63,535 bases of DNA from an uncultured beta proteobacterium. Lineage in GTDB: Bacteria > Pseudomonadota > Gammaproteobacteria > Burkholderiales > Burkholderiaceae_C. The translations under genes were made by a program, and so were the position numbers. The stretch spans positions 1-63,535 of the forward strand of contig CAISJH010000611.1 of NCBI GenBank assembly GCA_903885585.1, in the 5' to 3' direction. Under the pieces are notes generated by a model. It worked only from the letters and a program-made list of their open reading frames with translations, was not told where the DNA came from and ran no database searches. Shown piece by piece: positions 9,866-54,485 of the stretch (position 1 is the stretch's first letter; the number at the start of each line of letters is the position of its first letter).

Positions 9866-9870
9866 GCAAC

Positions 9871-9925
9871 CTCCTGTGTTTGCGGGGCGACATGCCCTGC
9901 TTCTTGCCAAGGGGAAGGTGTTGCG
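9871..9925 (-). promoter_or_regulatory. Conserved hairpin leader of the DUF3150 gene
   Basis: Read on the minus strand: CGCAAC (9925-9920), CTTGGCAAG (9911-9903), a GCAGGGC/GCCCCGC hairpin (9900-9882, one mismatch), then AGGAGG before the ATG. Twelve bases separate CGCAAC from GCAAG. Two further AGAGCTTGCAA copies lie at about 9926-9953. It is one of seven leaders with the same layout. Confidence 0.6.
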
Positions 9926-9963
9926 AGAGCTTGCAATTGCTAGAGAGCTTGCAAAAGTGAAAA

Positions 9964-9991
9964 AGCCCCGAAATCTCGCGATTTCGGGGCT
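9964..9991 (-). terminator. Intrinsic terminator of the cobS-like gene
   Basis: A perfect 12-bp stem, AGCCCCGAAATC and GATTTCGGGGCT, with a TCGC loop, is followed on the minus strand by TTTTT. It is 16 bases past the stop of the CobS-like gene. Confidence 0.88.
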
Positions 9992-10006
9992 CGGGGGGGT
10001 TGTGAA

Positions 10007-11596
10007 TCAGAACGGTGGCGACTTCAGAAGCATCGCCTGCCACAGTTGGCGTGCAACGTGCTGCTCAGCAGGTGACAGCGCGACTGCACTGCCCATCCGC
10101 ATCAAGTTCACCCGGTACAAAAAGTCGGCCAAGTTCGCCGCCTCGGTCACACCAGGTCGAAACTCCAGCGTGCCAATGTCGACGTAGCCCTTGGCGAGCT
10201 TTTCAGGCGACTTCGAGGCGAAGTACTTCGAGTCCACCGTACGCGGCGTGAGAGCTTTTCCGAACGAACCGAACCAGACCTCATGGCCAAGAGTGCGGCT
10301 TGTCCTGCCTCCATTGGCCGTGACTGGCAGGTACTCGACCTGCTCCACCACGGCCCATATCTTCGGGGCGCCATTGTTGTGATGAGCCAAAAGCTGAGTC
10401 ACCAGGGCCATCGACGGGTTGCCTGCAGCTTGCGGTGCCACTTGCTGCGAAGCAGTTCCTGCGGAACTCGCCACTGCAGGTGCAGCTGACGCCCCACTTT
10501 GAGGTGCTGGCGCCACTGGCTTCGGCCCGAAGTCCTTGCCATGGATAGTCTTCTCAAGGATCGTCTGAATCGCTTTGGCATCCGTCGGGTTGGCGCCGTC
10601 GAGCAGCGCGAAGCGCAGGGCCTCGGTGATCGCCTCGGTCTGCCTCGGTCCTCCCAACGCGCCTTTGCGCTTGTGTATGAGCTTGGCCCAGCGAACCATG
10701 ATCCGGGTCGAAATGGTGGTCTCGATCACAGCTCCCTTGAAGGCAGCCCTGGTTTCGTTAGCCACCGCGAGCATCGCCTCCATCAGTTGGCCCGACAAGC
10801 CAGGGACTGTCTTGGCGAGGATCTGGGCCTCCTGGGTCTGCGGCATGTAGTCGACCCGCATCGTCAGAAACCGGTGCATGAGGGCCACCGACATCCTCTG
10901 GATGCCCCGATACACGGTGGTGTCGTCGTCATTCACTGCGTTGCCGGTCATTGCGACCCGCATTTGCGGATGCGGCGCGACGATCTCGCCCGTCTCGGGA
11001 ACAAGAAGGCTCCCGCCATCGAGCAAGGTGTTGAACGCGCCGAAGGTGGACGGTGGCAAGAAGTTGCCCTCATCCATCAGAAGCACGCCGCCCCGTCTTG
11101 CAGCGGTGACCGCCGGGCCGTCCTGGAAACGTGTGACCACGCCCGAAGACAGACTGCGAGAAACCCACTCCAGCAAGGTTTCGCCATCTTCAGCACCTTT
11201 GAAGATGCTTTTGAGAGCTGCGCCAGCCTTGGACAACAAACCGTCCTGAGCCTTCATCGCGCCAGGAACCAGAGTCATGGACCCCAGCATCTCGGCGAAT
11301 TCCAGCTTGGAATGGCATGCGATCCGCCACACCTCGATGTTGAGCCTGGCGCAAACCTGCTCGATCAGGCTGGATTTGCCGCATCCGGTCGGGCCTTGCA
11401 CCAACAGGTTCTTGGCCACGTCGCCCTCGAGCCAGAGGAGGACATTCTTCAACTGATCCCGATTGAACTCGTAGGCCGGGTCGATTTCCGGGACGAAGGG
11501 CGTGCGCTGGTCGTACACCTTCACGGTGACGGAATCAGGCGCGGAAATGTTGAACACCTCGGCCGCCTTGGCGACCTTGAAAGATCTCTCTTGCAT
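10007..11596 (-). CDS. CobS-like AAA+ ATPase (MoxR/CbbQ type)
   Basis: The 529-residue protein has Walker A GPTGCGKSS (about 68-76), Walker B GGVLLMDEGN (about 169-178) and a RVAMTGNA sensor region, all typical of CobS/MoxR AAA+ ATPases. These work with VWA proteins such as the CobT-like product of 12530. No cobalamin genes are near, so a role in cobalt insertion is unlikely; remodelling of a protein or nucleoprotein complex is more plausible. After a Gln/Ala-rich linker (about 365-410) there is an extra C-terminal domain of about 110 residues (KIWAVVEQVEYLPV onward) absent from cobalamin CobS. The start at 11596 is fixed by AAGGAGA. Confidence 0.85.
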   Translation of the reverse strand: MQERSFKVAKAAEVFNISAPDSVTVKVYDQRTPFVPEIDPAYEFNRDQLKNVLLWLEGDVAKNLLVQGPTGCGKSSLIEQVCARLNIEVWRIACHSKLEFAEMLGSMTLVPGAMKAQDGLLSKAGAALKSIFKGAEDGETLLEWVSRSLSSGVVTRFQDGPAVTAARRGGVLLMDEGNFLPPSTFGAFNTLLDGGSLLVPETGEIVAPHPQMRVAMTGNAVNDDDTTVYRGIQRMSVALMHRFLTMRVDYMPQTQEAQILAKTVPGLSGQLMEAMLAVANETRAAFKGAVIETTISTRIMVRWAKLIHKRKGALGGPRQTEAITEALRFALLDGANPTDAKAIQTILEKTIHGKDFGPKPVAPAPQSGASAAPAVASSAGTASQQVAPQAAGNPSMALVTQLLAHHNNGAPKIWAVVEQVEYLPVTANGGRTSRTLGHEVWFGSFGKALTPRTVDSKYFASKSPEKLAKGYVDIGTLEFRPGVTEAANLADFLYRVNLMRMGSAVALSPAEQHVARQLWQAMLLKSPPF

Positions 11597-11600
11597 GTGA

Positions 11601-11651
11601 TCTCCTTGCCGCGACCATCGCGGCTCCACTTGCAAGAGGTAGGGTGTTGCG
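11601..11651 (-). promoter_or_regulatory. Conserved hairpin leader of the cobS-like gene
   Basis: On the minus strand: CGCAAC (11651-11646), 12 bases, GCAAG within CTTGCAAG (11636-11629), a perfect 7-bp hairpin GCCGCGA/TCGCGGC with a 3-base loop (11624-11608), then AAGGAGA. The hairpin touches the Shine-Dalgarno sequence. Confidence 0.65.
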
Positions 11652-11692
11652 GGGGCGCTGAATTGACGGGTCCGTGGCGCCGACCGACAAAA

Positions 11693-11723
11693 GCCCGCTG
11701 CAGCTTGGAGGCTGACAGCGGGC
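11693..11723 (-). terminator. Intrinsic terminator of the 11744 gene
   Basis: GCCCGCTG and CAGCGGGC form an 8-bp stem followed on the minus strand by TTTTG. It is 20 bases past the stop codon. Confidence 0.8.
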
Positions 11724-11743
11724 GGGGATGTGGAAATCAGGTT

Positions 11744-12379
11744 TCAGGCTTCAGCCATTACCCTGGCCGGAGAAGTCAGGCAGCGAAGCCACTGAGACCG
11801 CTCCTTGCCGTCAACCTTCAAGGCTGAGATCGACCAAAAAAGAGTCCCGGCCAGATGCGTACACCTCTGGTGGACAGCGGTCTCAGCCAGCATCTCTTGA
11901 TGGGGAGCCAGTCCGGGCCGCAGCGCGATGTCCACATCAGCCTTCGCTGAGCCTCTGAGGCTGTCGAACGCGATATGCACGTTCGCGGTGCCAAGGCTGG
12001 CGCCGTTCATGGAAATCTCAAGGATCCACTCTCCTCGGCCGCCACGTGCGACGGTATCGACTCCGCCTGGTCGATTCAACAGGCCTTGAGCACCAGCCAA
12101 GGTGATCGGCTTCACAACGGGGTCGGCGCTCGACGCCTTCGCGTGAAAAAACGCGGACGCGCCACTGGCCAGGTAGTTTGATCCGGCGTTCGGGGCCAGG
12201 CCCAGGACGAAGACCTGAGTGCCAGTGCTTCGAACAGCAACCAGGTACTCGAGTCCGGTTACAGCTGTCTCGCTCAGCAACCGCCGATCGTGGACGGTGA
12301 AGTCCTCTGTGTAGTGCTGCAGCACTTGGAGCACCCGCGGCGCCAACTGGTCGTACAGCGCTTCTGCAATCGGGTTCAT
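11744..12379 (-). CDS. Hypothetical protein between cobS-like and cobT-like genes, 211 aa
   Basis: The start at 12379 (MNPIAEALYDQLAPRVLQVL) follows AGGAGA and the conserved leader. The protein appears mixed alpha/beta with alternating strands (YLVAVRSTGTQVFVLGLAP, later WILEISMNGASLG and HIAFDSLRG) and no signal peptide or membrane segment. I do not recognise the family. It lies between the AAA+ and VWA genes with its own terminator and leader, so it may be a component or substrate of that module. Confidence 0.6.
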   Translation of the reverse strand: MNPIAEALYDQLAPRVLQVLQHYTEDFTVHDRRLLSETAVTGLEYLVAVRSTGTQVFVLGLAPNAGSNYLASGASAFFHAKASSADPVVKPITLAGAQGLLNRPGGVDTVARGGRGEWILEISMNGASLGTANVHIAFDSLRGSAKADVDIALRPGLAPHQEMLAETAVHQRCTHLAGTLFWSISALKVDGKERSQWLRCLTSPARVMAEA

Positions 12380-12389
12380 AGGGATTTTT

Positions 12390-12450
12390 CTCCTGCTAAC
12401 GCGGCGCCGGGATGGCGCCATCTCACGCTTGCCAAGGGCAATGGATTGCA
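12390..12450 (-). promoter_or_regulatory. Conserved hairpin leader of the 11744 gene
   Basis: On the minus strand: TGCAAT in place of CGCAAC (about 12450-12445), 12 bases, GCAAG in CTTGGCAAG (12436-12428), GGCGCC/GGCGCC hairpin (12419-12403), then AGGAGA. It is the most divergent of the seven full leaders in its first box. Confidence 0.5.
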
Positions 12451-12480
12451 CGGCCGTGGATCGGCCACAGGGGCGGAAAA

Positions 12481-12509
12481 AAACCCGATCCTTTGGGGGG
12501 ATCGGGTTT
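12481..12509 (-). terminator. Intrinsic terminator of the cobT-like gene
   Basis: AAACCCGATC and GATCGGGTTT form a 10-bp stem followed on the minus strand by a run of seven T residues, 20 bases after the stop codon. Confidence 0.92.
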
Positions 12510-12529
12510 CGGGTGGGATAGGGAGTAGC

Positions 12530-14680
12530 TCAGACCCGTTGGGTCTGCACCGCGGCTTTGACCGAGGCAAACATGCCGTTGGCCAACTCTTCCGACTGGT
12601 GAACAGTCGTATGTGCAATGCCGAACTTGTCGAGCACTTGCTTGAAGCTGCTCATTGCTGGCGCCCCGCTTGCGGAGATCAGCAAAGTTGCGACTTCAAC
12701 TCCAGCACGTCTGGCTTCAGCCATGGCTGCGGCTGCAGCGGTTTCGTCCGCCGGTATGCCATCGGTGAGCAAGACCAGAAGCTTGCGCTGTTCTTGCCTG
12801 TTGGCTATCTCTGGGACCACCGATAGCAAAGCCTGGTCGGTGCACGTCGATCCCTCGGTCAGCGGCGTCATGTAGAGCCTATGGCGCCGCCAGCTTTGGT
12901 CGAAGGACTTCACCCGCGTGAGTTGATGTCCAAACAGGCGGACCGCGAACGGCACCTGGAATCGATCCAACACATCGCCGAGTGCCCTCGTGCATGCGTA
13001 GGCCGCCTCCAGGCAGCTCATCTGGCCACCGAACCCAGAGCGCATGGACCCAGAGATGTCGGTGAGGATCAGCACGGAGGTGTCGATCCCCTCCTGCTCA
13101 TCCTGGTGCCTGAAGATCCGAGTCTTGGCGGCCGTGATGACGCCGGGGAGGATTCGCGACTGGATGCGGCGCCCGGTGCGCCTGAAATCCACCGCCGTCT
13201 CCACCAGACTGGTGAGTGCGTCCTCGAGCTTGTTTCCAAGCTTGATGGAAACGGGTCGAGCGAGCTCTCCAATCCGCTGAGACAGATGGGGCACCTCATC
13301 GACCAAGTCACGTGCGTTCAGATCCCAGCGGGTGCCGGCACCTCTGGCTCCTGGTGACTCATCGCCGCTGCCGAAAGTAGGCTTATGGGCCTTTCCGGCG
13401 GCACCGAGTGCCTTGGAGAGCTGATCGGCAAACTCGCCCGAACCGGTCTGGCTTGCCGTGGCATCCAGGACCTTCCTGGCCATCTCCTGAGCCTTGGCTT
13501 GCGCCTCAGCCTGGGCACTTGGCTTCGGCTGCGGCTGCGGCTGTGGACTTGCCTGGCTCTGCTGCTCTTCAGGCTGACCCGCGCCCGGCTGACTGGCCGG
13601 TGCCGTGGGCTGCCCAGTTCCACTGCGTGAACCCTGTCCGGGGGATGCAGACTGACCTTGTTTGGGTGCACCTTGTGAGGCACCCGAAGAACCTGGCGCA
13701 CCTGGCGCACCCGTGCCGGGCTCGCCCTGGCTGGCCTGTTCGTTGCCTGAGTCCTGCCCTGATGAGGCTGAACCTGGCTTGCCGCGTTGTGGGTCGGTTT
13801 GCCCGTCCTGCGCTGGCTGTCCCGACTGGCCACCCTTGCCTTCTTGGTCGGCTTCGTCATTACCACCCTGCCCCGGCTGTTGCCCTGGCTGCGGGCCATC
13901 CTGCTGGGTTTGCTGTTGAGCTTGATCCTGGGCGCCGGCTTGTGCCGACTCCTGATCCTGGCTCTCATGCCCTTGCTGCTGTTCGGGGGGTGGTTGCCCT
14001 TGCTCATCGCCTTGGCCTTGCGCCTGTTGGGCGATGAGCGCGACGATCTCCTTGGCCAGGACTATGGCCTGCTGCGTGCTGGCGACCTGGTCGACTTCGC
14101 AGGCTTTTTGCCAAACCTTCTCGACCAGCTCTGGACCCAAAGACGCCTCCGCGAACTCGCGGTGGGCTTTGTAGAGATCGGCCAGCACCACCTGGCCGCG
14201 CTTGACGGTGCGCAGCCCCGTCAGCACCGTGTTGACCACGTGGGCCGCAGGTTCGGACTTCGGGTCCGGGCCGCGGAAGACCCCTCGCCGCAGCATGATC
14301 TCGAGCGCCTTGTCGATGGTGGGCGCGCACCCTGGCTTGAGTGCGCAAAGTTCGCGCTCGCCCCACACGTCCTCCAGGATGTTGGAGATCGCCAGGGTGA
14401 TCGCCGGTTCGCCTTCAAGCAGCGTCTGCCCAAGGTCAAAGTCCGTCTGCCGGCAGTGCACGCCGGCCTCGTGATCTACCAGCCCTTCGGCAAGGATCGC
14501 GTCCTCCTGCGATCCCATCTGCTGGCGCAGAGGCAGGAAGATCGTTTTGCCATCAGTCATCGCGGTGGGCAGCCGCTCGTCGAACCGGATGTCCACGCCC
14601 CAGCTGAGTCCCAGGATCCGGGCGTACACCGCCAGGCTCCTGGTGTCGGCGCCAAGGCCGTCTTTGTTGCTTGCTTGCAT
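12530..14680 (-). CDS. CobT-like VWA domain protein
   Basis: The 716-residue protein has three parts. An N-terminal domain contains LVDHEAGVHCRQTDF (about residues 66-80), a His/Glu motif common in element-borne CobT-like proteins. A long Gln/Gly/Pro-rich linker runs from about 220 to 400. A C-terminal VWA domain carries the metal site motif TDISGSMRS (about 540) and a later LLTDGIPADET. CobT-like proteins pair with CobS-like AAA+ ATPases, here two genes downstream. Since no cobalamin genes are present, a magnesium-chelatase-like remodelling machine for DNA or protein is inferred. The start has GAGGAG and the conserved leader. Confidence 0.82.
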   Translation of the reverse strand: MQASNKDGLGADTRSLAVYARILGLSWGVDIRFDERLPTAMTDGKTIFLPLRQQMGSQEDAILAEGLVDHEAGVHCRQTDFDLGQTLLEGEPAITLAISNILEDVWGERELCALKPGCAPTIDKALEIMLRRGVFRGPDPKSEPAAHVVNTVLTGLRTVKRGQVVLADLYKAHREFAEASLGPELVEKVWQKACEVDQVASTQQAIVLAKEIVALIAQQAQGQGDEQGQPPPEQQQGHESQDQESAQAGAQDQAQQQTQQDGPQPGQQPGQGGNDEADQEGKGGQSGQPAQDGQTDPQRGKPGSASSGQDSGNEQASQGEPGTGAPGAPGSSGASQGAPKQGQSASPGQGSRSGTGQPTAPASQPGAGQPEEQQSQASPQPQPQPKPSAQAEAQAKAQEMARKVLDATASQTGSGEFADQLSKALGAAGKAHKPTFGSGDESPGARGAGTRWDLNARDLVDEVPHLSQRIGELARPVSIKLGNKLEDALTSLVETAVDFRRTGRRIQSRILPGVITAAKTRIFRHQDEQEGIDTSVLILTDISGSMRSGFGGQMSCLEAAYACTRALGDVLDRFQVPFAVRLFGHQLTRVKSFDQSWRRHRLYMTPLTEGSTCTDQALLSVVPEIANRQEQRKLLVLLTDGIPADETAAAAAMAEARRAGVEVATLLISASGAPAMSSFKQVLDKFGIAHTTVHQSEELANGMFASVKAAVQTQRV

Positions 14681-14684
14681 GTTT

Positions 14685-14735
14685 TCTCCTCGCCGCGACC
14701 GCCGCGGCTTTGCTTGCGAGGAGAGATGCGTTGCG
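14685..14735 (-). promoter_or_regulatory. Conserved hairpin leader of the cobT-like gene
   Basis: On the minus strand: CGCAAC (14735-14730), 12 bases, GCAAG in CTCGCAAG (about 14720-14712), hairpin GCCGCG/CGCGGC (14708-14692), then GAGGAGA and the ATG at 14680. The hairpin sequence is nearly that of the cobS-like leader. Confidence 0.65.
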
Positions 14736-14828
14736 CGCGCCTGGAATCTCGAATATCCCTACGTGGAAGTCGGGTTTCGTTTGACTGTTGCGTGGTCGTA
14801 TAACCTAATATTCACATATCGATTTTGC

Positions 14829-14848
14829 TTGCGTATGTTGTTACGCAA
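14829..14848. promoter_or_regulatory. TTGCGTA inverted repeat upstream of the DUF4116-like gene
   Basis: TTGCGTA (14829-14835) and TACGCAA (14842-14848) form a perfect 7-bp inverted repeat with a 6-base spacer, 43 bases before the ATG at 14891. The same heptamer recurs near other starts. It is a candidate operator. Confidence 0.5.
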
Positions 14849-14890
14849 CCTGATCGTACTACTGTCGGCTCAACTCTCGGAACACTACAC

Positions 14891-15742
14891 ATGGCACATG
14901 CCTCCACTGCAGGCGCATCACGCGCCAACCCCAGCAATCAGCCGACCCGGTCTTACAGGGTGCGCCTCTTGGATCTGCTTGTGGAGCATGGCCCGCTCGA
15001 CTGCAGTCAGGCGTCGCGCTTGACCGGTATTCCACGCACAGTCGTCGCGGCAACCCTGCACGCTGCGCGTTCGCGCGGAATGGTGAGCGTGGTTCCCCGA
15101 TCACAACTGCCGGCCAACCACCCCTGCATCGCTGCAGGCGCCGGATCCAGGAGCTTTGTGTACCGATTCGCGTCGTACGAACCTTGCGCAGCCACACCCC
15201 AGCCCAAGCACGAGTCGACCGGTTCAAGCTTCCCTGAAGACGTGGTCCGAGTCCTGGAGGACGTCTTCTACCCCACCATGCGGGCCAGCGTGAGCGCTCT
15301 GGGCTCCATCACGCAACGCCGACGCGTCGTGCAGCTTCCGATGTCCTCGCACGACACCATGGAGAAGTTCGTACAGGAGGATGGAATGCGGCTTTTCTGG
15401 GTGCCGCGCAGCCAACGCACGTTGAAGGTCCGGATGGCCGCGTTGAGGGCCAACGGGATGGCTATCCAATACCTCAGCCGAGATGAACTTACTGAGGAGC
15501 TTTGCGTGACTGCGGTCAAGCGCTCTTGGATGGCGCTGCAGTTCATTCCTGCTGAGTGGCGCACTCTTGGTGTTCGCCTGGCTGCCGTGCGCCACTCCTG
15601 TAGCGCACTCGCATTGCTCTCCGAGCACGAGCAATCCCCAGAGGTCATGTCTGCGGCGCAGGCCAGCTTGGCCAGCGCAAGTTCCAAGCCGAACGCACTT
15701 GGCTCTGCCGTGCGCAGCCGCGACGCCCAGCTGCTGATGTAG
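14891..15742 (+). CDS. Winged-helix protein with DUF4116-like repeats, N-terminal part before an in-frame TAG
   Basis: Residues 20-70 look like a winged helix (YRVRLLDLLVEHG, then ASRLTGIPRTVVAATLHAARSRG). From about residue 125 repeats of about 24 residues appear, with the pattern RT..VR.AA.R..G.A...L (RTLKVRMAALRANGMAIQYL, then TEELCVTAVKRSWMALQFI). These resemble DUF4116-type repeats, of unknown function. The frame ends at TAG 15740-15742, yet the same frame continues with more repeats to 16204. The gene starts a plus-strand group with the methyltransferase and the RNA polymerase alpha paralogue. Confidence 0.65.
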   Translation: MAHASTAGASRANPSNQPTRSYRVRLLDLLVEHGPLDCSQASRLTGIPRTVVAATLHAARSRGMVSVVPRSQLPANHPCIAAGAGSRSFVYRFASYEPCAATPQPKHESTGSSFPEDVVRVLEDVFYPTMRASVSALGSITQRRRVVQLPMSSHDTMEKFVQEDGMRLFWVPRSQRTLKVRMAALRANGMAIQYLSRDELTEELCVTAVKRSWMALQFIPAEWRTLGVRLAAVRHSCSALALLSEHEQSPEVMSAAQASLASASSKPNALGSAVRSRDAQLLM

Positions 15743-17051: not shown

Positions 17052-17981
17052 ATGCTCTCAGTCTCAGGAACAGATACCGCCTCTGTTGCAATCTTGTCCC
17101 CGCTGGCTCCTGGGTTCGGGCAGGTGCTGGGCAACGCGCTGCGCCGCGTGTTGCTCTCCTCCATGGTGGGCTACGCGCCGACCGAGGTCACCATTGCCTG
17201 TGTCCTGCATGAGTACTCGACCATCGACGGCGTGCAAGAGGACGTGGTCCACGTCATGCTCAACCTCAAGGGTGTGGTGTTCAAGCTGCACAACCGCGAC
17301 GAGGTGACGCTGGTGCTGCGCAAGGAAGGCGAAGGCCCCGTGCGCGCTTCCGACATCCAGACGCCCCACGACGTGGAGGTGATCAGTCCGGACCACGTGA
17401 TTGCCAACCTGTCCCAAGGCGGCAAGCTGGACATGCAGATCAAGGTGGAGAAGGGGCGCGGCTTTGTGCCGGCGAATGCAGGGCAAGCACCCAGCCACAT
17501 CGGGCGTATCGCGCTGGACGCCTCCTTCTCGCCAGTGCGTCGGGTCAGCTACGCAGTCGAGAACGTCCGGGCCGAGGACGGGTTTACTGAATTCGACAAG
17601 CTGGTTTTAGAGATCGAAACCAACGGCGCCATCTCACCGGAAGAGGCGATCCGGGCTTCCGCCAAGATTCTGGTCGAGCAGTTGGTGGTGTTCACCCGGC
17701 TCGAAGGTGATGGGGAGGTGGTCCAGGATGAATTGAGCCGTTCGCCCGAGGATCATGAGCCGGCAGCCATCCTGATGCGCCCCGTCGACGAACTCCAGCT
17801 GACAGTGCGCTCGGCCAACTGCCTGCGCGCGGAGGGCATCAATAGCGTCGGAGACCTGGTTCAACGCAGCGAGATCGAGCTACTCAAGACGCCAAATCTG
17901 GGCCGCAAGTCGATCGTCGAGATCAAAGGCGTGCTTGCCAAGCTGGGGCTTCACTTGAGGGACACCACAGGCCCAACCTAG
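17052..17981 (+). CDS. rpoA: RNA polymerase alpha subunit paralogue, element-borne
   Basis: The 309-residue protein keeps the full alpha plan. The N-terminal assembly domain has [20 protein letters not shown], including the Arg equivalent to E. coli R45. The C-terminal domain has [13 protein letters not shown] and [16 protein letters not shown], keeping the R265, N268, G296, K298 and S299 equivalents that bind UP-element DNA. It is close to Burkholderiales chromosomal RpoA but differs at both ends: the first strand is shortened and altered ([17 protein letters not shown]), and the usual RLENWPP tail is replaced by RDTTGPT. Neither ribosomal protein genes nor rpsD flank it, so this is not the chromosomal copy. 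A GGAGG precedes the ATG. Confidence 0.93.
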
Positions 17982-22653: not shown

Positions 22654-22659
22654 CTCAAT

Positions 22660-22718: not shown

Positions 22719-22751
22719 CGGGCATGCAATGCGTTCATCAGGCCGCAAGAG

Positions 22752-42103: not shown

Positions 42104-45043
42104 ATGTGGGAGCTCTACACCTACTGGCACTACGAAGCCGTTGTTCGAGCGTTGAACGGCATCGTGATGGTGATGGGCGGCGATGGCTACACAGGCCTGC
42201 TGAAGTCCATGGCCCTGGTGGGACTCATTGTGTCCACCGCTGTAGGCCTGGCCAAGGTCAGCGCAGCGGAGCCAGGCAAGTTCTTCGTTTTTCTGCTCCT
42301 GGGCTACTCGGTGATGTTCGTGCCGAAGGTCACGGTGAGCGTGCGTGACATTGGCTCGGGCCAAGGTCAAAACGTGGCCAATGTGCCTCTGGGAATCGCG
42401 TTCTTTGCCACCAGCACGAGCCAGATCGGCAAGTACCTCACGGACACCTTCGATACGGCCTTTGCGCCGGTCGATTCAAACCTTTCGTTCTCCAGGTCGG
42501 GGCTGGGCTGGGGCGCATCTGCCATGGCCACGATGGCACAGGTCAAGCCACGCGACCAGACGCTGGCGCCTGCCATGGCCAACTTCGTGCGCTCGTGCGT
42601 GGTGCCAGAGATCGTGGACAACCCGTTGGCCTACGACGTCTTGTCGAGGTCGCCCAACATCTTCACGGCACTTGCAGCCGATGGCTTTCTGAACCCCGGG
42701 CGTGTGGTCTACATGCCCATTGGCGATGCAGGCGGAGGTCAATACCTGCCCTGCACTTCCGGCGATCAATACAACGCCCTCACACGCCTGAGGATCAAGA
42801 TCGATGCCGAAGCCGAGGCGCAGAAGGTGCCACTGGCGCGCCTTCTGATGAAGTACATCCCGCCTACTTCGCAAGGCACAGACTCACAGATCCTGGCGCT
42901 CGCGGACTCGCAGCTGGGTGCCGCGAGCTCTGCGCTGCTCGGCGCATCTGGCAGCGTCAAAGACCACCTCTTCCAGGCAATCACAGCAAACCTGATGAAC
43001 GAGAGCGGCGCAGAGCTCGCTGCCGCTCGGGGCGACTGGGGTGCGGTACAGCTGGCCGCAGGCGCGGCCATCGCCAACGCTCAGTCCATCTCGTCGTACC
43101 AGGTGCTGGGCATGATCGGCTCAGAGGCCTTGCCCCGCATACGCAATATCGTGGAGGTTGTGCTGCTGGCCACCTTCCCGATCATCGTGATCATGATGAT
43201 CGTGGGCGGCGAAAAGGGCGGTACCGTCGTCTCGTCCTACGCGATCACCTGCCTTTGGATCCAGCTATGGGCCCCGCTGTACTCCATCGTCAACAACCTG
43301 CTGCAGCCTCTGACGATTTCGCGCTTCAAGTCCATTCTCAGCAGCGCCAGCAGTGGAGGCGGCGGTGGCGGCGGGGGTAGTTCCCAGGTCTACGGCCTGT
43401 CCATGCAAAACATGGACACGATCATCGCCACAGGCTACTCCGAGCAAGCCATGGCTGGGGCGCTTGTTATGGCTGTGCCTGCCATCGCCTACGCGCTGGT
43501 CAAGGGCGGTGCGGTGGCTGTGAGCGGCGCAATCTCACCGTTGTCTGCGCCTGCTTCCGGCGCGGCCTCCAGCGCAGGCGCCCAGGCAGGTCTTGGCAAC
43601 TTCAACATCGGCAACACGAGTTGGGGCGCCCACTCCTCCAACACGACCACGGGCAACAAGTTCGACAGCGCTGGCGCCATCACTCAAGGCCGCTACCAGA
43701 CTACACAGGGGCTGATGTCGAGAACCTATGGCTCGGGCGGTGAAGCCGTCGACGCAGGTCAGATGGTCTCCAACCTCGGCGCAATAAGCGCGCAGGTCGG
43801 CGCATCTGCGAAGCAAGCCATCTCCACCGCTGCAAGCACAGAGCACTCGAGGGGCGTGACCGCCACGCAGCAGTACATGAGTGGTATCAGCACTGCTGTC
43901 GACAACTTCCGGCGGCAAGGCACCAGTTCTGGCATCAGCGATGGCGTGACTACGAAGGGCGGGGTCTCAACCGCCTCAGCAACGCAGCAGTCCGCGAGCT
44001 CGGGTTTCTCAAAGATTGAGTCTGAAGCAAAGCGATTAGGGATCTCGACCGAGCAAATGGCTGCGCTTACCTTTGCTGCAGGAGCAAGTGCCGGCTGGAA
44101 TCTCAAGGACTCCCTGCTCGGCAAAGCGTTGGGGGCGGACGTGGGGGCTCGGACGTCCCTAGAACACAAGCAAGGCACATCCCAAAGTCGTAGCGGAGCT
44201 ATGGAGGCGGCCCAGCGGCTTTCCAAGGACGAGGACGTCAAGTCGCTGCAGTCTGTGATGCGCCAGAACCAAGTCAGTACTGAGGGCAGCAACACAAGGA
44301 CCAGCCAAAGCAGCGTGGACGCTGGGAAGAGCGCCAACCTCACGAACACCATGGGGCACCTTGAGCAGGCACAGCAGCAGTTTGCCAAGGCTGAGCGGCT
44401 ACAAGAGATGGCCGCAAGAACCAACGACACCTCGAGTCAGCTCAGTCAGGACCTCAGCAACCTCGTCTTGGAGAGACTGTGCGAGAACGGTCACGACCCG
44501 GACCGGATCTTGCGCGCCGCAAACCTTGGCTCCGGCCAAGAACGCGCAGATGCTCAGGCGGCCATCATGACAGCAAGCCGATCGGTGGCCGAGGAGATGG
44601 TTCAAAGCCAGCTTGGAGCCTGGAGTCTGACCAGGCCAGGGGCGCCCCCCAGTGGATCAGTGACCGATGGGGCTGCCGTCCAAGCCGCAGTCGCGGATAT
44701 GACATCTGCTGCAGAGGTGAAGGTCCAAGAAGGTAAAGCTGCAACGGCCAACAGTGGTGCCGAAGCTCTGAATGCTCAATCAACGCCCGTCAGCAACAGC
44801 GCGGCGGCGCAAGCGGTCATGACTGCGGCTGGTAGCGGCATAGGAGCCAATCAGGCAGCCCTTGACAAAAAGAGTAGCGAGATGCCGGGCGAATTCAAGG
44901 CTGCTCAGGAAGCCGGTCAGGAAACGCGCTCCAAGTCGCCTTCATCGGTGCGCGCAGTAGTTGACGGCCCGGACATGGGCGGCCTGGGTCCTAAACCTGA
45001 GACTCCAGCGAACACTGACGCTTCGCAACATCCTGCAGCCTGA
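42104..45043 (+). CDS. traG: TraG mating pair stabilisation protein
   Basis: The N-terminal half has several membrane segments (LLKSMALVGLIVSTAVGL, then IVEVVLLATFPIIVIMMIVGG, then GALVMAVPAIAYALVKGG) as in TraG. A Gly-run (SSGGGGGGGSS) lies near residue 420. The C-terminal periplasmic half, 500 residues, is Ser/Gln/Ala rich and helical, with repeated SQS and ASS stretches, as seen in F TraG, which functions in mating pair stabilisation and entry exclusion. Length is 979 residues, close to F TraG. Confidence 0.88.
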   Translation: MWELYTYWHYEAVVRALNGIVMVMGGDGYTGLLKSMALVGLIVSTAVGLAKVSAAEPGKFFVFLLLGYSVMFVPKVTVSVRDIGSGQGQNVANVPLGIAFFATSTSQIGKYLTDTFDTAFAPVDSNLSFSRSGLGWGASAMATMAQVKPRDQTLAPAMANFVRSCVVPEIVDNPLAYDVLSRSPNIFTALAADGFLNPGRVVYMPIGDAGGGQYLPCTSGDQYNALTRLRIKIDAEAEAQKVPLARLLMKYIPPTSQGTDSQILALADSQLGAASSALLGASGSVKDHLFQAITANLMNESGAELAAARGDWGAVQLAAGAAIANAQSISSYQVLGMIGSEALPRIRNIVEVVLLATFPIIVIMMIVGGEKGGTVVSSYAITCLWIQLWAPLYSIVNNLLQPLTISRFKSILSSASSGGGGGGGGSSQVYGLSMQNMDTIIATGYSEQAMAGALVMAVPAIAYALVKGGAVAVSGAISPLSAPASGAASSAGAQAGLGNFNIGNTSWGAHSSNTTTGNKFDSAGAITQGRYQTTQGLMSRTYGSGGEAVDAGQMVSNLGAISAQVGASAKQAISTAASTEHSRGVTATQQYMSGISTAVDNFRRQGTSSGISDGVTTKGGVSTASATQQSASSGFSKIESEAKRLGISTEQMAALTFAAGASAGWNLKDSLLGKALGADVGARTSLEHKQGTSQSRSGAMEAAQRLSKDEDVKSLQSVMRQNQVSTEGSNTRTSQSSVDAGKSANLTNTMGHLEQAQQQFAKAERLQEMAARTNDTSSQLSQDLSNLVLERLCENGHDPDRILRAANLGSGQERADAQAAIMTASRSVAEEMVQSQLGAWSLTRPGAPPSGSVTDGAAVQAAVADMTSAAEVKVQEGKAATANSGAEALNAQSTPVSNSAAAQAVMTAAGSGIGANQAALDKKSSEMPGEFKAAQEAGQETRSKSPSSVRAVVDGPDMGGLGPKPETPANTDASQHPAA

Positions 45044-45065: not shown

Positions 45066-45581
45066 ATGCGTAAGGCAGTCTGCTTCTTAGCGCTGGCGTT
45101 TCCTTTGCTCGCGTGGAGCCAGCAGGCGCCCAGGTGGTCGCGTGTGTATGAGGTTTCGCTTGCTCATGCTTTCCCCGGCCACGAGCAGAGCATCGAGGCT
45201 GCAGCTGCAAGATCAGCGCGTGTCCGGGCCTCGGAGGACTACGGCGCCACCCTTCTGAAGGTGCGCCAGTCAGGCTCTGGCGGCATGGACGCACAAGTGA
45301 TGTCGGGCGCTTCATCGGTCCAGACGCTGCGCCACACGCAGCGCACTGATGCCCAAGGTCGCGTGTGGTCGGACTTCCAATTCCTTGTGCAAATCGACGC
45401 CGCGGACATGCACCGGCAGGTGTCGGCCGTGCGCAACCTGGACCCGACTACCCTGGAAGCCAGACGTGCGGCCCGGTCAGCCGAGATCCTGGAACACCAA
45501 ATGCGCGCTCAGCGAAGTCCCCAAGAACCTGATCACCGCATCGCGACAATGGTCCTGCAAAGTCTGCAGCGCGGCGAGTAA
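45066..45581 (+). CDS. Secreted protein, paralogue of the 48048 product N-terminus
   Basis: A signal peptide (MRKAVCFLALAFPLLAWSQQ) precedes a domain of about 100 residues: VYEVSLAHAFPGHEQSIEAAAA, seen in part, then SDFQFLVQIDAADMHRQV. The spacing of EVSL, ASSVQTLRH and FQFLVQIDAADM aligns with EVSLRLE, TRQSDSGQWADFRFEVAVNAAEV in the protein at 48048. Ends with a charged helix. Function is unknown; export is predicted. It lies 23 bases after traG. Confidence 0.6.
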   Translation: MRKAVCFLALAFPLLAWSQQAPRWSRVYEVSLAHAFPGHEQSIEAAAARSARVRASEDYGATLLKVRQSGSGGMDAQVMSGASSVQTLRHTQRTDAQGRVWSDFQFLVQIDAADMHRQVSAVRNLDPTTLEARRAARSAEILEHQMRAQRSPQEPDHRIATMVLQSLQRGE

Positions 45582-50356: not shown

Positions 50357-50370
50357 GGGGGTGATGAAGA

Positions 50371-50952
50371 TCAGATGGGCGCAAACGGATTGCGCTCATC
50401 TTTCGAGTTCGCAGCAATGGCCGCGATCTCACTCTCCCACGGCGGCATCGGATCGAAGCCGTCGTGTTGGCCCGGGTGTGGGCCTGTTGCCGCACTGGTC
50501 GTCACAACCAGCGGCTGGATTGACACGGCGGGTGCCGCATCAGCTCTCTCCACTTTGACGCTGCGCGTCTGGCGGCGCTCTTCTTGAAGAGCGCTTAAGG
50601 GCCCAAGCCATTGGGCCTTGGACAGACCTGATGCTGATGGGCGGCGGGCTCCAGCTTTTCGGGGGAAGTCCACGAGTTCCCTCGGGACCGACCGAAACCC
50701 TGGCTGCGCAGGCGCAGGTCGCCATAGCGGATCCCTCCTCAGGACCGCCGGGACAGGCTGCATCTCGCTCGGGACTGCCGGTACAGCCGCATGAGCGACA
50801 GGGGCCGGAGCCGATTCCGCCTTCTCAGTCTCCTCTTCGCGCTTTTCGGCCTCCTTTTCTCTTGCGGTCATTACCGCATGAGGCACTGCAATGGCCCAAA
50901 CCAAAAAAAGCACAGTCCCGCCTACACCAAGGATCCATTGAGTTGCGTCCAT
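50371..50952 (-). CDS. Single-pass membrane protein with charged linker
   Basis: The start at 50952 (MDATQWILGVGGTVLFLVWA) follows AAGGAG and a hairpin. One membrane segment (ILGVGGTVLFLVWAIAVPHAV) is followed by a coiled, charged stretch (REKEAEKREEETEKAESAP) and Pro/Ala-rich regions, ending DERNPFAPI. It diverges from the PAPS-reductase-like gene across a 154-base region holding leader elements for both. No family is recognised. Confidence 0.6.
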   Translation of the reverse strand: MDATQWILGVGGTVLFLVWAIAVPHAVMTAREKEAEKREEETEKAESAPAPVAHAAVPAVPSEMQPVPAVLRRDPLWRPAPAQPGFRSVPRELVDFPRKAGARRPSASGLSKAQWLGPLSALQEERRQTRSVKVERADAAPAVSIQPLVVTTSAATGPHPGQHDGFDPMPPWESEIAAIAANSKDERNPFAPI

Positions 50953-50954
50953 GA

Positions 50955-50976
50955 GCTCTCCTTGCCCCAGTGGGGC
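50955..50976 (-). promoter_or_regulatory. Hairpin leader of the 50371 gene (partial version)
   Basis: A GCCCCA/TGGGGC hairpin (50964-50976) touches an AAGGAG before the ATG, as in the conserved leaders. The upstream CGCAAC and GCAAG boxes are not clear here. Confidence 0.45.
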
Positions 50977-51032
50977 TGTTGCATGAGCACGGTTATGCGA
51001 TGCGCGCGCAGGTAATCGCTGAGCAGCGATAG

Positions 51033-51097
51033 GCGTTGGCGCAACGCACTGCTTTGGCAAGCCGCGGCGCGTAGCGCCCTCAACCTCAACCAAGGAG
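51033..51097 (+). promoter_or_regulatory. Conserved hairpin leader of the PAPS-reductase-like gene
   Basis: On the plus strand: CGCAAC within a GCGTTG/CAACGC palindrome (51033-51047), 11 bases, GCAAG in CTTTGGCAAG (51052-51061), a GGCGC/GCGCC hairpin (51066-51078), then AAGGAG (51092-51097). It is the only full leader on the plus strand, so the motif is not strand specific. Confidence 0.6.
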
Positions 51098-51106
51098 AAC
51101 CCCCCC

Positions 51107-52447
51107 ATGTCGAAATTTGACGAGCCGCCAGGCTCATTCGTGCTGCCAGAGGCGGACGAACACCTCGTGCCCGTCAGCGGAGGTGCAGATAGCACCGTGC
51201 TGGCCCTGTACCTTCGCAAGCACTTCCCAAAGGTAGCCTTCACCTACCTCTTCTGCGACACCAAAGCGGAGCCAGACGAGCTCTATGCGTCGTTGGCTCG
51301 GCTGGAGGACGCGCTAGGCCAAAAGATCATCCGCCTACACAGTGAACGCGGCGGGCTTTACGAGCTGATCGAAGAGCAAGGAGGCTTTTTGCCGTCCTCG
51401 CAGGCTCGTTGGTGCACCCGCCTGACCAAGTCCGCGCCCCTGGCCTCCTGGCTGAAGGCGAGCCCGAAACGTCGAACGATGTCGGTGGGCATTCGCTCTG
51501 ACGAGCGCACAAGGCTTGGCCTGTCGCTGCCGGACGTTGCAACTGTGCTCCCATTCGTCGAGCTCGGCTGGTCCAGGTCCGACGTGTTCGACGCCCTGCG
51601 TGCCACGATCGGAATTCCGGCGTTCTACCGGTTCAGATCTCGATCGGGATGCGCCCCTTGCCCTTTCCAGCGGCGATCGGAATTCGCAGGCCTCTTGGAG
51701 AATTCCCCTGCTGAATTCGAGCAGGCGCTCGGCTACGAAAAGCTATCGCCCGCTGACAGTCTTCGCCACGAGTCCGCCCCCTCGCTAAGCGTTGATACCG
51801 GGTGGACGGCAAATCACTTTAGCCTCCCCCTACCCGAGCAGCCCTTCGCTTCTGGCCGTGCCCAGCGCGGTGATGATCTGTTTGGATCGCGTGGAATCTT
51901 CTTGGCGGCGGAATTCTTCACTGCGGTCTACCCTGGCTACGCTCCATTCATCTGGTGGCAGCGGCTGGTGAGCTTTTCCACGACCTCGAGTGGCATTCAG
52001 CGTCAGGTCGACATGCGCTTTCAGCATCTTCGGGATACACGCGAAGCCTGGGACTTAGGCGAAGAGGATCTAGCGAACGTGCGTTACGCCCTCTACTACA
52101 TCGAGGCGCCAGCCGACGTCTTCGATCCTGACGCCCCTGGTCTTGGGTCATTCACCTGGCAATCAGGCGTCGGACTCAAGCAGCTGCGGCATGTGATGAC
52201 ATGGGCAGGGCGCGTGCTTCACGCACACACCCTCGCACAGGACGCGTCGACCCTTGGAACCCATGTGTCGGAGCTGACCTGGTCAGCAGAGCACGCACGG
52301 GAAAGTGACCTCGCGCTGCGCCGCGCGAAGGACAATCCCGCCCCACTCGGACGGCTCGTCAACATGGGCCTCTACATGCCTCGCGAACCGAGGCTGGACG
52401 ACGAGCTCGACGAGCGATTTGTGACTTGCCCGGCTTGCTCGATTTGA
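51107..52447 (+). CDS. PAPS-reductase/DndC-like ATP pyrophosphatase domain protein
   Basis: The 446-residue protein opens with the PP-loop motif VPVSGGADSTVLAL (about 21-34), followed by YLFCDTKAEPDELYASL, matching PAPS-reductase and DndC-like enzymes that activate substrates with ATP. Cys motifs are present: RWCTRLTK (about 103), GCAPCPFQR (about 183) and a C-terminal CPAC. These could bind a metal or Fe-S cluster as in DndC. A DNA phosphorothioation system would need Dnd partners, which are not seen. It may be a stand-alone modifier, tRNA thiolation-like enzyme or a defence protein. AAGGAG and the hairpin leader precede the ATG. Confidence 0.72.
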   Translation: MSKFDEPPGSFVLPEADEHLVPVSGGADSTVLALYLRKHFPKVAFTYLFCDTKAEPDELYASLARLEDALGQKIIRLHSERGGLYELIEEQGGFLPSSQARWCTRLTKSAPLASWLKASPKRRTMSVGIRSDERTRLGLSLPDVATVLPFVELGWSRSDVFDALRATIGIPAFYRFRSRSGCAPCPFQRRSEFAGLLENSPAEFEQALGYEKLSPADSLRHESAPSLSVDTGWTANHFSLPLPEQPFASGRAQRGDDLFGSRGIFLAAEFFTAVYPGYAPFIWWQRLVSFSTTSSGIQRQVDMRFQHLRDTREAWDLGEEDLANVRYALYYIEAPADVFDPDAPGLGSFTWQSGVGLKQLRHVMTWAGRVLHAHTLAQDASTLGTHVSELTWSAEHARESDLALRRAKDNPAPLGRLVNMGLYMPREPRLDDELDERFVTCPACSI

Positions 52448-52462
52448 ACCTTTACCAACCAC

Positions 52463-52501
52463 GGCCCCTCGTGCTTTCTGCATGAGGGGCCGACTCATTT
52501 T
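52463..52501 (+). terminator. Intrinsic terminator of the PAPS-reductase-like gene
   Basis: GGCCCCTC and GAGGGGCC form an 8-bp stem, followed by GACTCATTTT. It is 16 bases past the stop. Confidence 0.7.
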
Positions 52502-52512
52502 CTGAACGAAAA

Positions 52513-52543
52513 GGCCGCCTCGATCCGGAGATCAGAGGCGGCC
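52513..52543 (-). terminator. Intrinsic terminator of the Toprim gene
   Basis: GGCCGCCTC and GAGGCGGCC form a 9-bp stem with an inner GATC/GATC stem, followed on the minus strand by TTTTC. It lies 31 bases beyond the Toprim stop. Confidence 0.8.
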
Positions 52544-52573
52544 TGGGTGGTTTTGTAATGTCTGCGAGTCGTC

Positions 52574-53683
52574 TTAGCGAAACTCTGCAATGGCGCTGGC
52601 GAACGCGGCGGTACCCGCGCTGAGGTACTCGTCGAGCCAGTCGACGCTTTTGGCGCCTTCCGGTATCTCACCTGCCGGCACGTACATCGCGGCCCTTCGC
52701 CCGAGCGCTTGGAGCGCCTGGACCAACTGCCTTGCCGCCTCGACGCCGACACCCTCGGGGTGCAGATCGGTGGGCCGGTCCTTGTCTGCGAAGACCAGGA
52801 CCTGTTCAATGCCGCTCGGCGGCCGCCAGTGGGGCAGCAAGGTGGAGCTCACTGCTGCCCAGCAGGGCAGGCCCGTTGCCAAACTCACCGCCATCGCAGT
52901 CTCCAGGCCCTCGGCTATGCCAAGTGCTGGGCCCCGTGGCGCGCAAAGCTGGATGCTTGCCCCGTGCATGCTCATGTCGCCGGGCCGCGGCATGAGCTTC
53001 TTGGGCTCAGGCACCGGCGCCTTCTTTCCCTCTGGCGTCAGATAGGTCCGGTGCAGCGTGACTCCCCTGCCCTGCTCGTCGCAGACCAACGAAATCAGCG
53101 TGGGGAATGTCCCAAGGATCTCTCCTTCCTTGGACGTCCATCGCAGGCCCGGGTGCATCCTGAGCATGGGGGGCCAGCTGTTCAGACCCCGATTGCGCAG
53201 GTACGCACGCGCTGGCTCTGCTGCTGGCGCATCCAAGGGCATCGAGGAGAAGTAGACGTTGGCGAGCCTTGAGCGCGCCGCTAGGGCCTCCTGGTGCTGC
53301 TGCGCCTGGACCTGGGGGTCCACCTTGGTTGCTCTAGGTGGCTTCGCGGGGCTGCTTCGGACCTTGGCCTGTCCACCCTGGTCCTTTTTCTGGATCCCGC
53401 ACTCCTTCGCTACGGCCTCCAGGGTTTCCCGAAAACTCCAACCGTTGACCCAGGACAGCAGCGCCAGGCCGTCCCGATGTGCTCCACAGGTGTTGCAGAT
53501 GCCGCCCCCGGTTTGGGCAACATCCTTGAACAGCCTGAACCCGTCGGTGCCGCCGTGCACCGGGCAGGCCACGTGCTTGCCGAGTCTTTGCAGTGCATCT
53601 GCAAGAGACGGAGCGAGCGCGGACAGGATCGAATCCCATTTGCCATCTGCAATGGTCTTGATCTCCTTGGCGTCAAGAAACAC
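52574..53683 (-). CDS. Toprim-domain primase-like protein
   Basis: The GTG at 53683 follows AAAGGAGAAA and gives a 369-residue protein. An N-terminal zinc ribbon has C40, H43, C63 and C66 (CPVHGG and CNTCGAH). The Toprim domain includes GIAEGLETAMAVSLATG and VLVFADKDRP, supplying the catalytic Glu and the DxD. This is the layout of plasmid and phage primases that make primers for lagging-strand or transferred DNA. No helicase domain is attached. It lies next to the PAPS-reductase-like gene. Confidence 0.82.
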   Translation of the reverse strand: MFLDAKEIKTIADGKWDSILSALAPSLADALQRLGKHVACPVHGGTDGFRLFKDVAQTGGGICNTCGAHRDGLALLSWVNGWSFRETLEAVAKECGIQKKDQGGQAKVRSSPAKPPRATKVDPQVQAQQHQEALAARSRLANVYFSSMPLDAPAAEPARAYLRNRGLNSWPPMLRMHPGLRWTSKEGEILGTFPTLISLVCDEQGRGVTLHRTYLTPEGKKAPVPEPKKLMPRPGDMSMHGASIQLCAPRGPALGIAEGLETAMAVSLATGLPCWAAVSSTLLPHWRPPSGIEQVLVFADKDRPTDLHPEGVGVEAARQLVQALQALGRRAAMYVPAGEIPEGAKSVDWLDEYLSAGTAAFASAIAEFR

Positions 53684-53785
53684 ACTTTCTCCTTTCGGTT
53701 CTTGTTCACTGCCTGCAAGGTTGATGAAGGTTGCGTGCTCGTGCACGAACGCCTCGCAACTTTACGTAGGCTTATCGTGATAAGA

Positions 53786-53812
53786 GCCGACTCACTTTGT
53801 AAGTGAGTCGGC
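53786..53812 (-). terminator. Terminator-like hairpin of the 53862 gene
   Basis: A perfect 12-bp stem, GCCGACTCACTT and AAGTGAGTCGGC, with a TGT loop, lies 50 bases beyond the stop of the 53862 gene. T residues after the stem on the minus strand are mixed. Confidence 0.65.
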
Positions 53813-53861
53813 CTTGGGTGAAAAATCGTTGCATTCCATCTTTCGATGGAAGTGCGTGCTG

Positions 53862-54308
53862 CTATCGCAGCGACAACCGCCCACGCGAAGCTCGCGCATG
53901 GGGAGGTAACGCAACCGCTGCACACAGCGTGTCGTCTTCACGGGCCTCAGCACGTGAAACCAGCCTCGTGTAGTTGCTGGGGATCCAGCCGCCCGCGGTG
54001 AGGATGCCGCTGGATACAGAGCTAACTGTCGATTCCTGTGGGTCGTTGGCCAAGTAGGCGGCCACCGCGTCCACGACTTCAGTCGCGACCATCCGGCTGC
54101 CGTCGTGGACTACCCCAACCTCCCTGAGAAGGGAGGCGAACTGGTCATTCGAGTAACCGGCAAAGTGCCCTTTGGCTCGCTGCTGGGCGAACCATTCCTT
54201 CGACTTCGTCCTGCACATTACTTGGCAGCCATGTGCGGTCCCGCCAATGACCAAGAACACCTGTGTCCCAAGCCGCTGCTGTATGGGCAGCACTCGTACG
54301 TTCTTCAT
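53862..54308 (-). CDS. Hypothetical protein, 148 aa
   Basis: The ATG at 54308 (MKNVRVLPIQQRLGTQVFLV) follows AAGGAG and a conserved leader. The protein has a TAHGCQVMCRTKSKEW motif with two Cys and a C-terminal basic stretch. No family is recognised. It is transcribed divergently from the 54486 gene. Confidence 0.6.
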   Translation of the reverse strand: MKNVRVLPIQQRLGTQVFLVIGGTAHGCQVMCRTKSKEWFAQQRAKGHFAGYSNDQFASLLREVGVVHDGSRMVATEVVDAVAAYLANDPQESTVSSVSSGILTAGGWIPSNYTRLVSRAEAREDDTLCAAVALPPHARASRGRLSLR

Positions 54309-54313
54309 GGAAA

Positions 54314-54374
54314 TCTCCTTGCACAAACCGCGCTCGTCGAGCGCTGCAGTCTTGCGAAGGAGACATGGGTTGCG
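54314..54374 (-). promoter_or_regulatory. Conserved hairpin leader of the 53862 gene
   Basis: On the minus strand: CGCAAC (54374-54369), 13 bases, GCAAG in CTTCGCAAG (54359-54351), a perfect 6-bp GCGCTC/GAGCGC hairpin with a GTC loop (54344-54330), then AAGGAG. Confidence 0.65.
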
Positions 54375-54449
54375 GCGGCGCGTAACGCGAACGCCCGCGG
54401 TCTCGCCGTTATCTGCTCGCGCAAAGCAATTCCTCAGGCATGACTTCTA

Positions 54450-54477
54450 GCGCTCGCCGAGCGCACCATGCGAGGAG
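54450..54477 (+). promoter_or_regulatory. Hairpin leader of the 54486 gene (partial version)
   Basis: A perfect 6-bp GCGCTC/GAGCGC hairpin with a GCC loop (54450-54464) is followed by GCGAGGAG and the ATG at 54486. The stem is identical to that of the divergent leader at 54330. A CGCAAAG resembles the first box; the GCAAG box is degenerate. Confidence 0.5.
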
Positions 54478-54485
54478 TTTTCGAC

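Follow-up and report, generated by a model that had tools for sequence, protein, structure and literature searches.

The window analysed here is the whole of contig CAISJH010000611.1 (63,535 nt; C611 below), from assembly GCA_903885585.1 of an uncultured beta proteobacterium, and belongs to a plasmid or integrative and conjugative element (ICE). A common leader was found upstream of scattered single maintenance-type genes of this element and not in front of its transfer operon, as the first-pass annotation had claimed. Judged from sequence comparison, this leader is probably the promoter and short 5′ leader of a regulon served by a plasmid-encoded sigma factor, with putative binding and start sites. 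This reading is favoured because the leader is confined to two contigs of its genome, because the motif was discovered independently in plasmids carrying a related sigma-like gene and was recovered in leave-one-out and register tests, and because a plasmid chosen as a control (pBIL) and a second genome (G238) gave concordant results. Matches of the sigma-like protein to sigma region 2, agreement between promoter dialects and sigma-like proteins, and the lack of a sigma-70 site on the scanned leaders argue in the same direction.

Leader copies in the window

Seven leaders had been named in the first-pass annotation, upstream of genes starting at 9865, 11596, 12379, 14680, 22653 and 54308 on the minus strand and 51107 on the plus strand, and all were present there. 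In 5′ to 3′ order, CGCAAC is followed after 11-13 bases by GCAAG, and a GC-rich stretch then leads to AGGAG and ATG. GCAAG and AGGAG were confirmed in all seven, as was the spacing between the boxes. CGCAAC holds in six (TGCAAT at 12379), and the extended form CTTsGCAAG is exact in only four.

The leaders were scored with a model built from the leaders of the window's own genome (window-genome model). Those on the minus strand lie at 9866-9938 (DUF3150 gene; WT..G, GCAAC, GCAAG, hairpin and Shine-Dalgarno sequence (SD); 25.1 bits), 11597-11664 (CobS-like AAA ATPase gene; 25.4 bits, hairpin p 0.015), 12380-12463 (gene of unknown function; 24.5 bits), 14681-14748 (CobT-like VWA gene; 27.8 bits, p 0.005 with the motif pooled from other plasmids), 22654-22731 (gene without Pfam or NCBIfam match; 25.4 bits, hairpin p 0.01) and 54309-54387 (gene of unknown function; 23.5 bits, pooled motif p 0.035). 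The leader of the PAPS-reductase-like gene lies on the plus strand at 51027-51106 (22.2 bits). The leader of 14680 is the window leader that most resembles the motif found on other plasmids. In line with a leader absent from the transfer operon, no match to the window-genome model was obtained between 22783 and 45581.

Partial versions had also been proposed before 54486, 50952 and 46682. The first was upheld as an eighth leader (54408-54485, plus strand; box 1 CGCAAA), which stood outside the training set of the model and scored 13.6 bits (E 0.008, 103.5 kb searched), with its predicted register ranking first of 81. The YqaJ exonuclease gene at 54966 lies behind it. The other two did not reach E 10 with the same model, although 50952 (minus strand) gave p 0.005 with the motif from other plasmids. 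The region before 46682 (minus strand) was chosen by expectation maximization (EM) alongside the upstream regions of 46740 and 48048 (both plus strand), by eye not leaders.

A terminator-like stem (9992-9963) was found just upstream of the 9865 leader, and T runs precede the leaders of Aromatoleum plasmid 1, where part of the TT signal described below may be a terminator tail. Because of this stem and these T runs, each leader gene looks like a unit of its own.

Frequency above chance and confinement to two contigs

The pattern GCAACN{9,17}GCAAG matched 13 times in the window versus 3.2 ± 1.9 in 100 shuffled sequences, none of which reached 13; six of the 13 matches are leaders and seven are not. 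Unbiased EM on 56 upstream regions of the window returned the same motif, with a log-likelihood (LL) of 155 versus 91 ± 6 in five resampled sets. A dyad count missed the motif that EM recovered.

A second contig of this genome, C14, holds five further copies. Three lie upstream of a DpdA-like gene, an open reading frame (ORF) at 11160 and a gene with a weak DUF1281_C match, and the copies at 19614 and 213 have the boxes without SD and start nearby. EM on C14 alone yielded nothing (LL 89 versus 88 ± 5). Contig C14 also holds PAPS-reductase-like, ATP-dependent ligase-like and HATPase genes besides the DpdA-like gene.

A sequence-only model of 11 copies was run against the 5.5-Mb genome, the best 150 first-look candidates being scored. 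Twelve matches had E<0.01, all on C611 or C14; eleven of these are training copies and the twelfth lay outside the training set. Similarly, a strict pattern matched eight times in this genome, always on C14 or C611 (reversed pattern, 0), and gave six scattered matches in 80 other genomes of the genus, the same number as the reversed pattern (6). Two leader-pattern scans of viral contigs returned single matches in 15 and in 66 stretches, respectively, and the 66 were judged by eye to be chance. The leader set behaves like a regulon.

Confinement bears on the source of the factor that reads the motif. An alternative sigma factor of the host could be this reader, since extracytoplasmic function (ECF) sigma factors are encoded in host genomes and the motif has promoter-like geometry. 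Matches restricted to C611 and C14 here, and 16 of 18 on contigs C91 and C152 in G238 (see below), speak against a host factor, which is very improbable.

Promoter-like geometry and register

In all 12 copies, including those on C14, a T at −11 and a G at −6 from GCAA are fixed (10 TT, 2 AT), and the letters between and around the conserved positions vary among copies. The many copies on two contigs might suggest that a single promoter cassette was duplicated recently and has no reader of its own. Against this, conservation is limited to spaced positions while intervening and flanking letters differ, and on distant plasmids the geometry persists in different letters; duplication of this kind is extremely improbable.

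The two GCAA boxes had been compared with a −35/−10 pair. The −35 and −10 boxes of a sigma-70 promoter lie about 23 nt apart, start to start. At 16-18 nt the GCAA boxes are unlike such a pair, and this part of the first-pass annotation was abandoned. The common geometry is instead TT, 17-18 nt, gCAt.tC, then GCAAG close to the presumed start, and in this corrected register the leader matches a promoter-like motif of other plasmids, TT..TGT..GCATcTC.

With a motif trained without the window, the predicted register ranked first of 81 in nine of 11 leaders and second and third in the other two; the offset had been taken from the 14680 leader, so that ten leaders are independent. The expected register ranked first in three of seven leaders of the Cupriavidus malaysiensis plasmid (C. 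malaysiensis below). A sigma-70 scan (TTGACA, 16-18 nt, TATAAT) of 9700-15000 and 50900-54600, covering seven of the eight leaders (that of 22653 lies outside), found none on a leader. The single site in the first region lies at 14811-14839 on the plus strand, and the second region holds zero.

Leaders on other plasmids

In stretches of 40.8 kb each, refinement of a position weight matrix located 10 sites on the C. malaysiensis plasmid and 15 on Aromatoleum plasmid 1; one shuffle of each had 0. EM on upstream regions was likewise compared with first-order Markov resampled sets, not exact shuffles (five in the main run, one in two earlier runs). LL exceeded resampled values for C. malaysiensis (190 versus 99), Aromatoleum (190 versus 97), pMOL30 (144 versus 95), pBVIE01 (143 versus 90), Methylibium RPME01 (188 versus 95), G238 (121 versus 89) and pBIL (240 versus 94). 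For pKF715B (first 50 kb; 94 versus 87), G260 (97 versus 87) and G400 (114 versus 90) the result was not significant or a different motif emerged. Gene starts in G238, G260 and G400 came from our own crude caller, with which the motif was missed on pMOL30 and on a second C. malaysiensis region; annotated starts recover it on pMOL30.

The promoter-like motif precedes many single genes on pMOL30, pBVIE01, pKF715B, RPME01, Aromatoleum plasmid 1 and G238. Its commonest dialect reads TT, about 10 nt, TGT, 3 nt, GCATcTC, often followed by GCAAG. In leave-one-out runs, training on four elements and searching the fifth, it was found before 11/62 genes of pMOL30, 14/54 of pBVIE01, 15/40 of RPME01, 12/46 of G238 and 7/52 of Aromatoleum. 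Trained on all five, it was found before 4/39 genes of pKF715B. The same pooled motif hit 0/41, 1/41, 0/36 and 1/46 genes on four related plasmids without a sigma-like gene. Used alone, it does not pick out the window (2/56), C14 (0/31), C. malaysiensis (0/50), pBIL (0/49), G260 (0/39) and G400 (1/40).

A second model (other-plasmid model) was built from 36 of the 50 listed sites, taken from pMOL30, pBVIE01 and RPME01, leaving out 10 Aromatoleum sites and four others. Searched at E≤1 on whole records, it gave 17 matches on pKF715B, two on Aromatoleum and none on pBIL or C. malaysiensis. On the plasmids without a sigma-like gene it gave 0 (Alcaligenes), 0 (IncC), 1 (Halomonas) and 0 (Methylomonas). 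Of 18 matches in G238, six lie on C91, which holds the sigma-like gene, 10 on C152 and two elsewhere. In the window's own genome, six matches were obtained at this threshold, none of them on C611 or C14.

Co-occurrence with the sigma-like gene and promoter dialects

Leaders of this kind were present in nine of 11 carriers of the sigma-like gene examined (the window, C. malaysiensis, Aromatoleum, pMOL30, pBVIE01, RPME01, pBIL, pKF715B, G238, G260 and G400) and in none of the four related plasmids without it. In G260 and G400 no such leader was found in the 40 kb read. pBIL had been picked as a control, and its motif emerged before its sigma-like gene was found, as two pieces of one ORF. The four non-carriers are not leader-free, as they share a different leader of their own with ACCC/GGGG.

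The sigma-like proteins of pMOL30, pBVIE01, pKF715B and RPME01 are 41-60% identical and their plasmids use one common dialect. Other dialects are used by the window, Aromatoleum and C. malaysiensis, whose proteins are at most 27% identical to these four and to each other (identity table without G238 and pBIL). In this comparison the promoter dialect follows the similarity of the sigma-like proteins.

Homologous genes in related elements had been expected to carry the leader, and this was borne out in part. Leaders before orthologous genes retain the geometry, in the dialect of their own plasmid, but not the literal GCAAC and GCAAG boxes. PAPS-reductase-like genes have a leader in the window, Aromatoleum, pMOL30 and pBVIE01; DUF3150 in the window, Aromatoleum and C. 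malaysiensis; CobT in the window and Aromatoleum; CobS in the window and C. malaysiensis, the Aromatoleum CobS gene having no site; and an exonuclease gene in Aromatoleum, RPME01 and pKF715B, which in the window lies behind the 54486 leader.

The sigma-like protein and its neighbours

A protein of 374 aa is encoded at 60762-61886 on the minus strand. Family, profile and fold matches give it a predicted sigma-2-like domain and two Xre-type helix-turn-helix domains (HTHs). Besides its HTH matches, it has a weak sigma70-ECF match, and most of its length can be aligned (23% identity, E 2e-5) to a protein of Aromatoleum plasmid 1 that carries a sigma-70 factor annotation. On pMOL30 of strain CH34 the sigma-like gene is RMET_RS29695. 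Six of seven members of the family gave a weak ECF match, below the cut-off. The family profile retrieves AlgU/RpoE-type proteins through its own N-terminal part, and the predicted fold of the window protein matches region 2 of sigma-E. Pfam scans gave no sigma-4 match, HTH_3/Xre-type HTHs standing in its place. No relatives were found in viral contigs or in 50,697 phage records. The sigma-like family is little recognised.

Just downstream of the sigma-like gene, at 60080-60694 on the minus strand, lies a paralog of its DNA-binding half (56% identity over 147 aa; HTH matches) without the sigma-2-like part. These features invite another explanation, in which the boxes are an operator. The 60762-61886 protein or the paralog would then repress or activate as an Xre-type regulator working with the host polymerase, its sigma-like N-terminus serving only for contact or oligomerisation. 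The two Xre-type HTHs, a paralog that consists of just the DNA-binding half, and sigma matches below cut-off are in favour of this; no sigma-70-type site was found at leaders in the regions scanned, and the layout of the family and the match of its fold to sigma region 2 also argue against it. We consider an operator rather unlikely.

Under the sigma regulon reading, which remains preferred, the divergent element sigma factor, with two Xre-type HTHs replacing sigma-4, would direct RNA polymerase to the leader promoters. From 5′ to 3′, the leader would comprise WT (−35-like), G, CGCAAC, gCAt.tC (−10-like), a start near GCAAG, the variable hairpin, the SD and the start codon. The truncated paralog may compete for these promoters. 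Each plasmid lineage would have its own promoter dialect, changing along with its sigma-like protein. That the protein reads the promoter, the position of the start, and the roles of hairpin, paralog and the alpha subunit described next are what we infer from these comparisons.

The element further encodes a full RNA polymerase alpha subunit of 309 aa (17052-17981, plus strand), which has 83% identity with the chromosomal RpoA across 289 residues and differs from it at the N-terminus. An independent homolog (P0040) is 89% identical and likewise 309 aa long; another (P0039, 97%), whose source is not stated, may be the window's own cluster. This subunit may tune the polymerase. A bolder form of the hypothesis would be a partly private RNA polymerase, with its own sigma factor (sigma-2 plus two Xre-type HTHs), alpha subunit and promoter class, and with the paralog that only binds DNA acting as competitor. 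Sister megaplasmids, pMOL30 among them, would carry a sigma of the same kind with co-evolving dialects, and upkeep genes would be insulated from host transcription control. This bolder form is doubtful. It counts against alpha as part of a common system that the alpha-CTD family was found on none of seven named sigma-like carriers, and alpha therefore seems peculiar to the lineage of the window.

In another genome of the genus (G008), contig C2 has an alpha-CTD match (142-aa open frame) about 7 kb from a CobS-like match (219436-226611).

A conserved ORF of 94-98 aa was seen immediately upstream of the sigma-like gene at loci L202 (13535-13819), L204 (28391-28675), L203 (27977-28261) and L207 (19450-19746). 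Its products are 47-74% alike on four plasmids and not clearly so on two others (17%), and match no family. This ORF is a candidate anti-sigma factor, a lead weakened by these comparisons.

The window also carries F-type transfer genes (TraC, TraG_N, coupling protein) and encodes a RecD2-like helicase, a primase-like protein, a YqaJ exonuclease, a DUF3701 protein, CobS, CobT and DUF3150. Relatives of CobS were found on 1,591 plasmid records, each with <60% identity. Searching with CobS gave no close relative of the element among the matches listed in genome contigs, and only distant ones in viral contigs.

Hairpins and Shine-Dalgarno pairing

Hairpins between box 2 and the SD had been proposed as a conserved, selected form. 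Folding energy of this stretch was below that of resampled sequence over 11 leaders (combined z −4.3; two of the 11 individually p<0.05); at 9865 and at C14 1329, box 2 was matched loosely and a longer stretch was folded. Corresponding values were obtained on pMOL30 (z −3.6), pBVIE01 (−2.1), RPME01 (−4.0), G238 (−2.0) and C. malaysiensis (−3.7). Aromatoleum leaders gave no hairpin signal (z +0.2; five of 10 too short, the remaining five with mean z +0.1). Hairpins are thus significant in several lineages, but selection on their form is not supported as the defining feature, as they are not significant in Aromatoleum and the motif was found without structure. We place the hairpins downstream of the presumed transcription start, where they would form a predicted 5′ stem-loop of the mRNA.

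SD pairing was not significant in the window (seven leaders, 0.71 versus 0.60, p 0.19) or on C14 (three leaders, 0.88 versus 0.61, p 0.12). Pairing did exceed that of the resampled sets on five plasmids (C. malaysiensis, Aromatoleum, RPME01, Alcaligenes and IncC), where all annotated genes with or without leader were included. Sequestration of the SD as a general rule was weakened by the window result. In whole-leader folds, CTCCTT..GCAAG pairs with the SD region in several leaders.

The leader could also work at the RNA level, through a common 5′ structure that an element protein binds or that hides the SD, and so control translation or stability, with the boxes part of that RNA. The hairpins beyond chance in the window genome and on other plasmids (z −2.0 to −4.0), the CTCCTT..GCAAG folds and the SD pairing on the five plasmids fit this view. 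The window and C14 pairing values, the Aromatoleum leaders without hairpin, the C14 copies at 19614 and 213 that have boxes and no SD, and the fixed spacing of the upstream T and G do not; nor does Rfam, which gave no match at gathering score in the window and none at the leaders up to E 5. Action as RNA is improbable, and the promoter reading is retained.

Elsewhere in the window, at 6843-6910 on the plus strand, a SAM-V riboswitch-like stretch ending in CUAAAAAGGAGGAA scored 30.1 bits (gathering score 41; E 0.81).

Relation to known systems

Like ECF sigma factors (sigma-E, AlgU, SigW), the element protein has a predicted sigma-2-like domain and a two-part promoter-like motif before its putative regulon. 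It differs from them in the two Xre-type HTHs in place of sigma-4, in the letters of the motif and in being borne by a conjugative plasmid. Phage-encoded sigma factors serve the phages' own promoters, and here too a mobile element would bring a sigma-like factor for its own promoters; the element differs in being a plasmid or ICE, in domain layout, in carrying an alpha subunit as well and in the lack of phage relatives noted above.

Element-encoded control of many element promoters is also known from AcaCD (IncA/C) and SetCD (SXT/R391). These are FlhDC-like activators acting on transfer genes, whereas the window element has upkeep genes and a sigma-like protein; no FlhC/FlhD-like gene was matched among the window proteins scanned, some small ORFs lying outside the scan. 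The AcaCD-dependent promoters of IncA/C plasmids have been described, with starts mapped and the layout of a class-2 activator (PMC4207636).

The leaders of IncC, Alcaligenes, Halomonas and Methylomonas resemble those of the window in that one leader type precedes about a third to half of the genes in the CobS/CobT/DUF3150 region. They differ in sequence, are hairpin-rich and occur on plasmids without a sigma-like gene; the EM motif of the window is unlike theirs and lies outside the CCC/GGGG type. On plasmids L236 (IncC pP91278), L051, L237 and L238, which lack the sigma-like gene, these ACCC..GGGG hairpins often hold the SD in a hairpin arm (EM LL 147-234 versus 88-95); L236 and L237 gave no Rfam match.

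No publication describing the leader or the sigma-like protein family was found in the open-access literature. In the sigma factor count of the CH34 genome paper (PMC2864759), none is entered in the column taken as pMOL30, the column order having been deduced from gene counts; the same paper notes that pMOL30 and pBVIE01 have about 60 kb of backbone in common. A transcription-start library of C. metallidurans CH34 including pMOL30 has been published, with 5,763 starts according to its abstract (PMC9045368). For 12 pMOL30 sites, the starts predicted here fall 10-16 nt past the CAT, for instance at 41412-41418, 42134-42140, 43139-43145 and 45159-45165 on the plus strand of NC_007971.2.

Genes for metal resistance, degradation and DNA maintenance travel between hosts on large environmental conjugative plasmids, and plasmids of this family may run part of their own transcription. 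If so, the co-ordination of many single-gene upkeep units would be explained by a plasmid sigma factor that has a promoter class to itself. The well-studied plasmid pMOL30 would offer a directly testable regulon, and the system would represent a new sigma architecture with a natural orthogonal promoter set.

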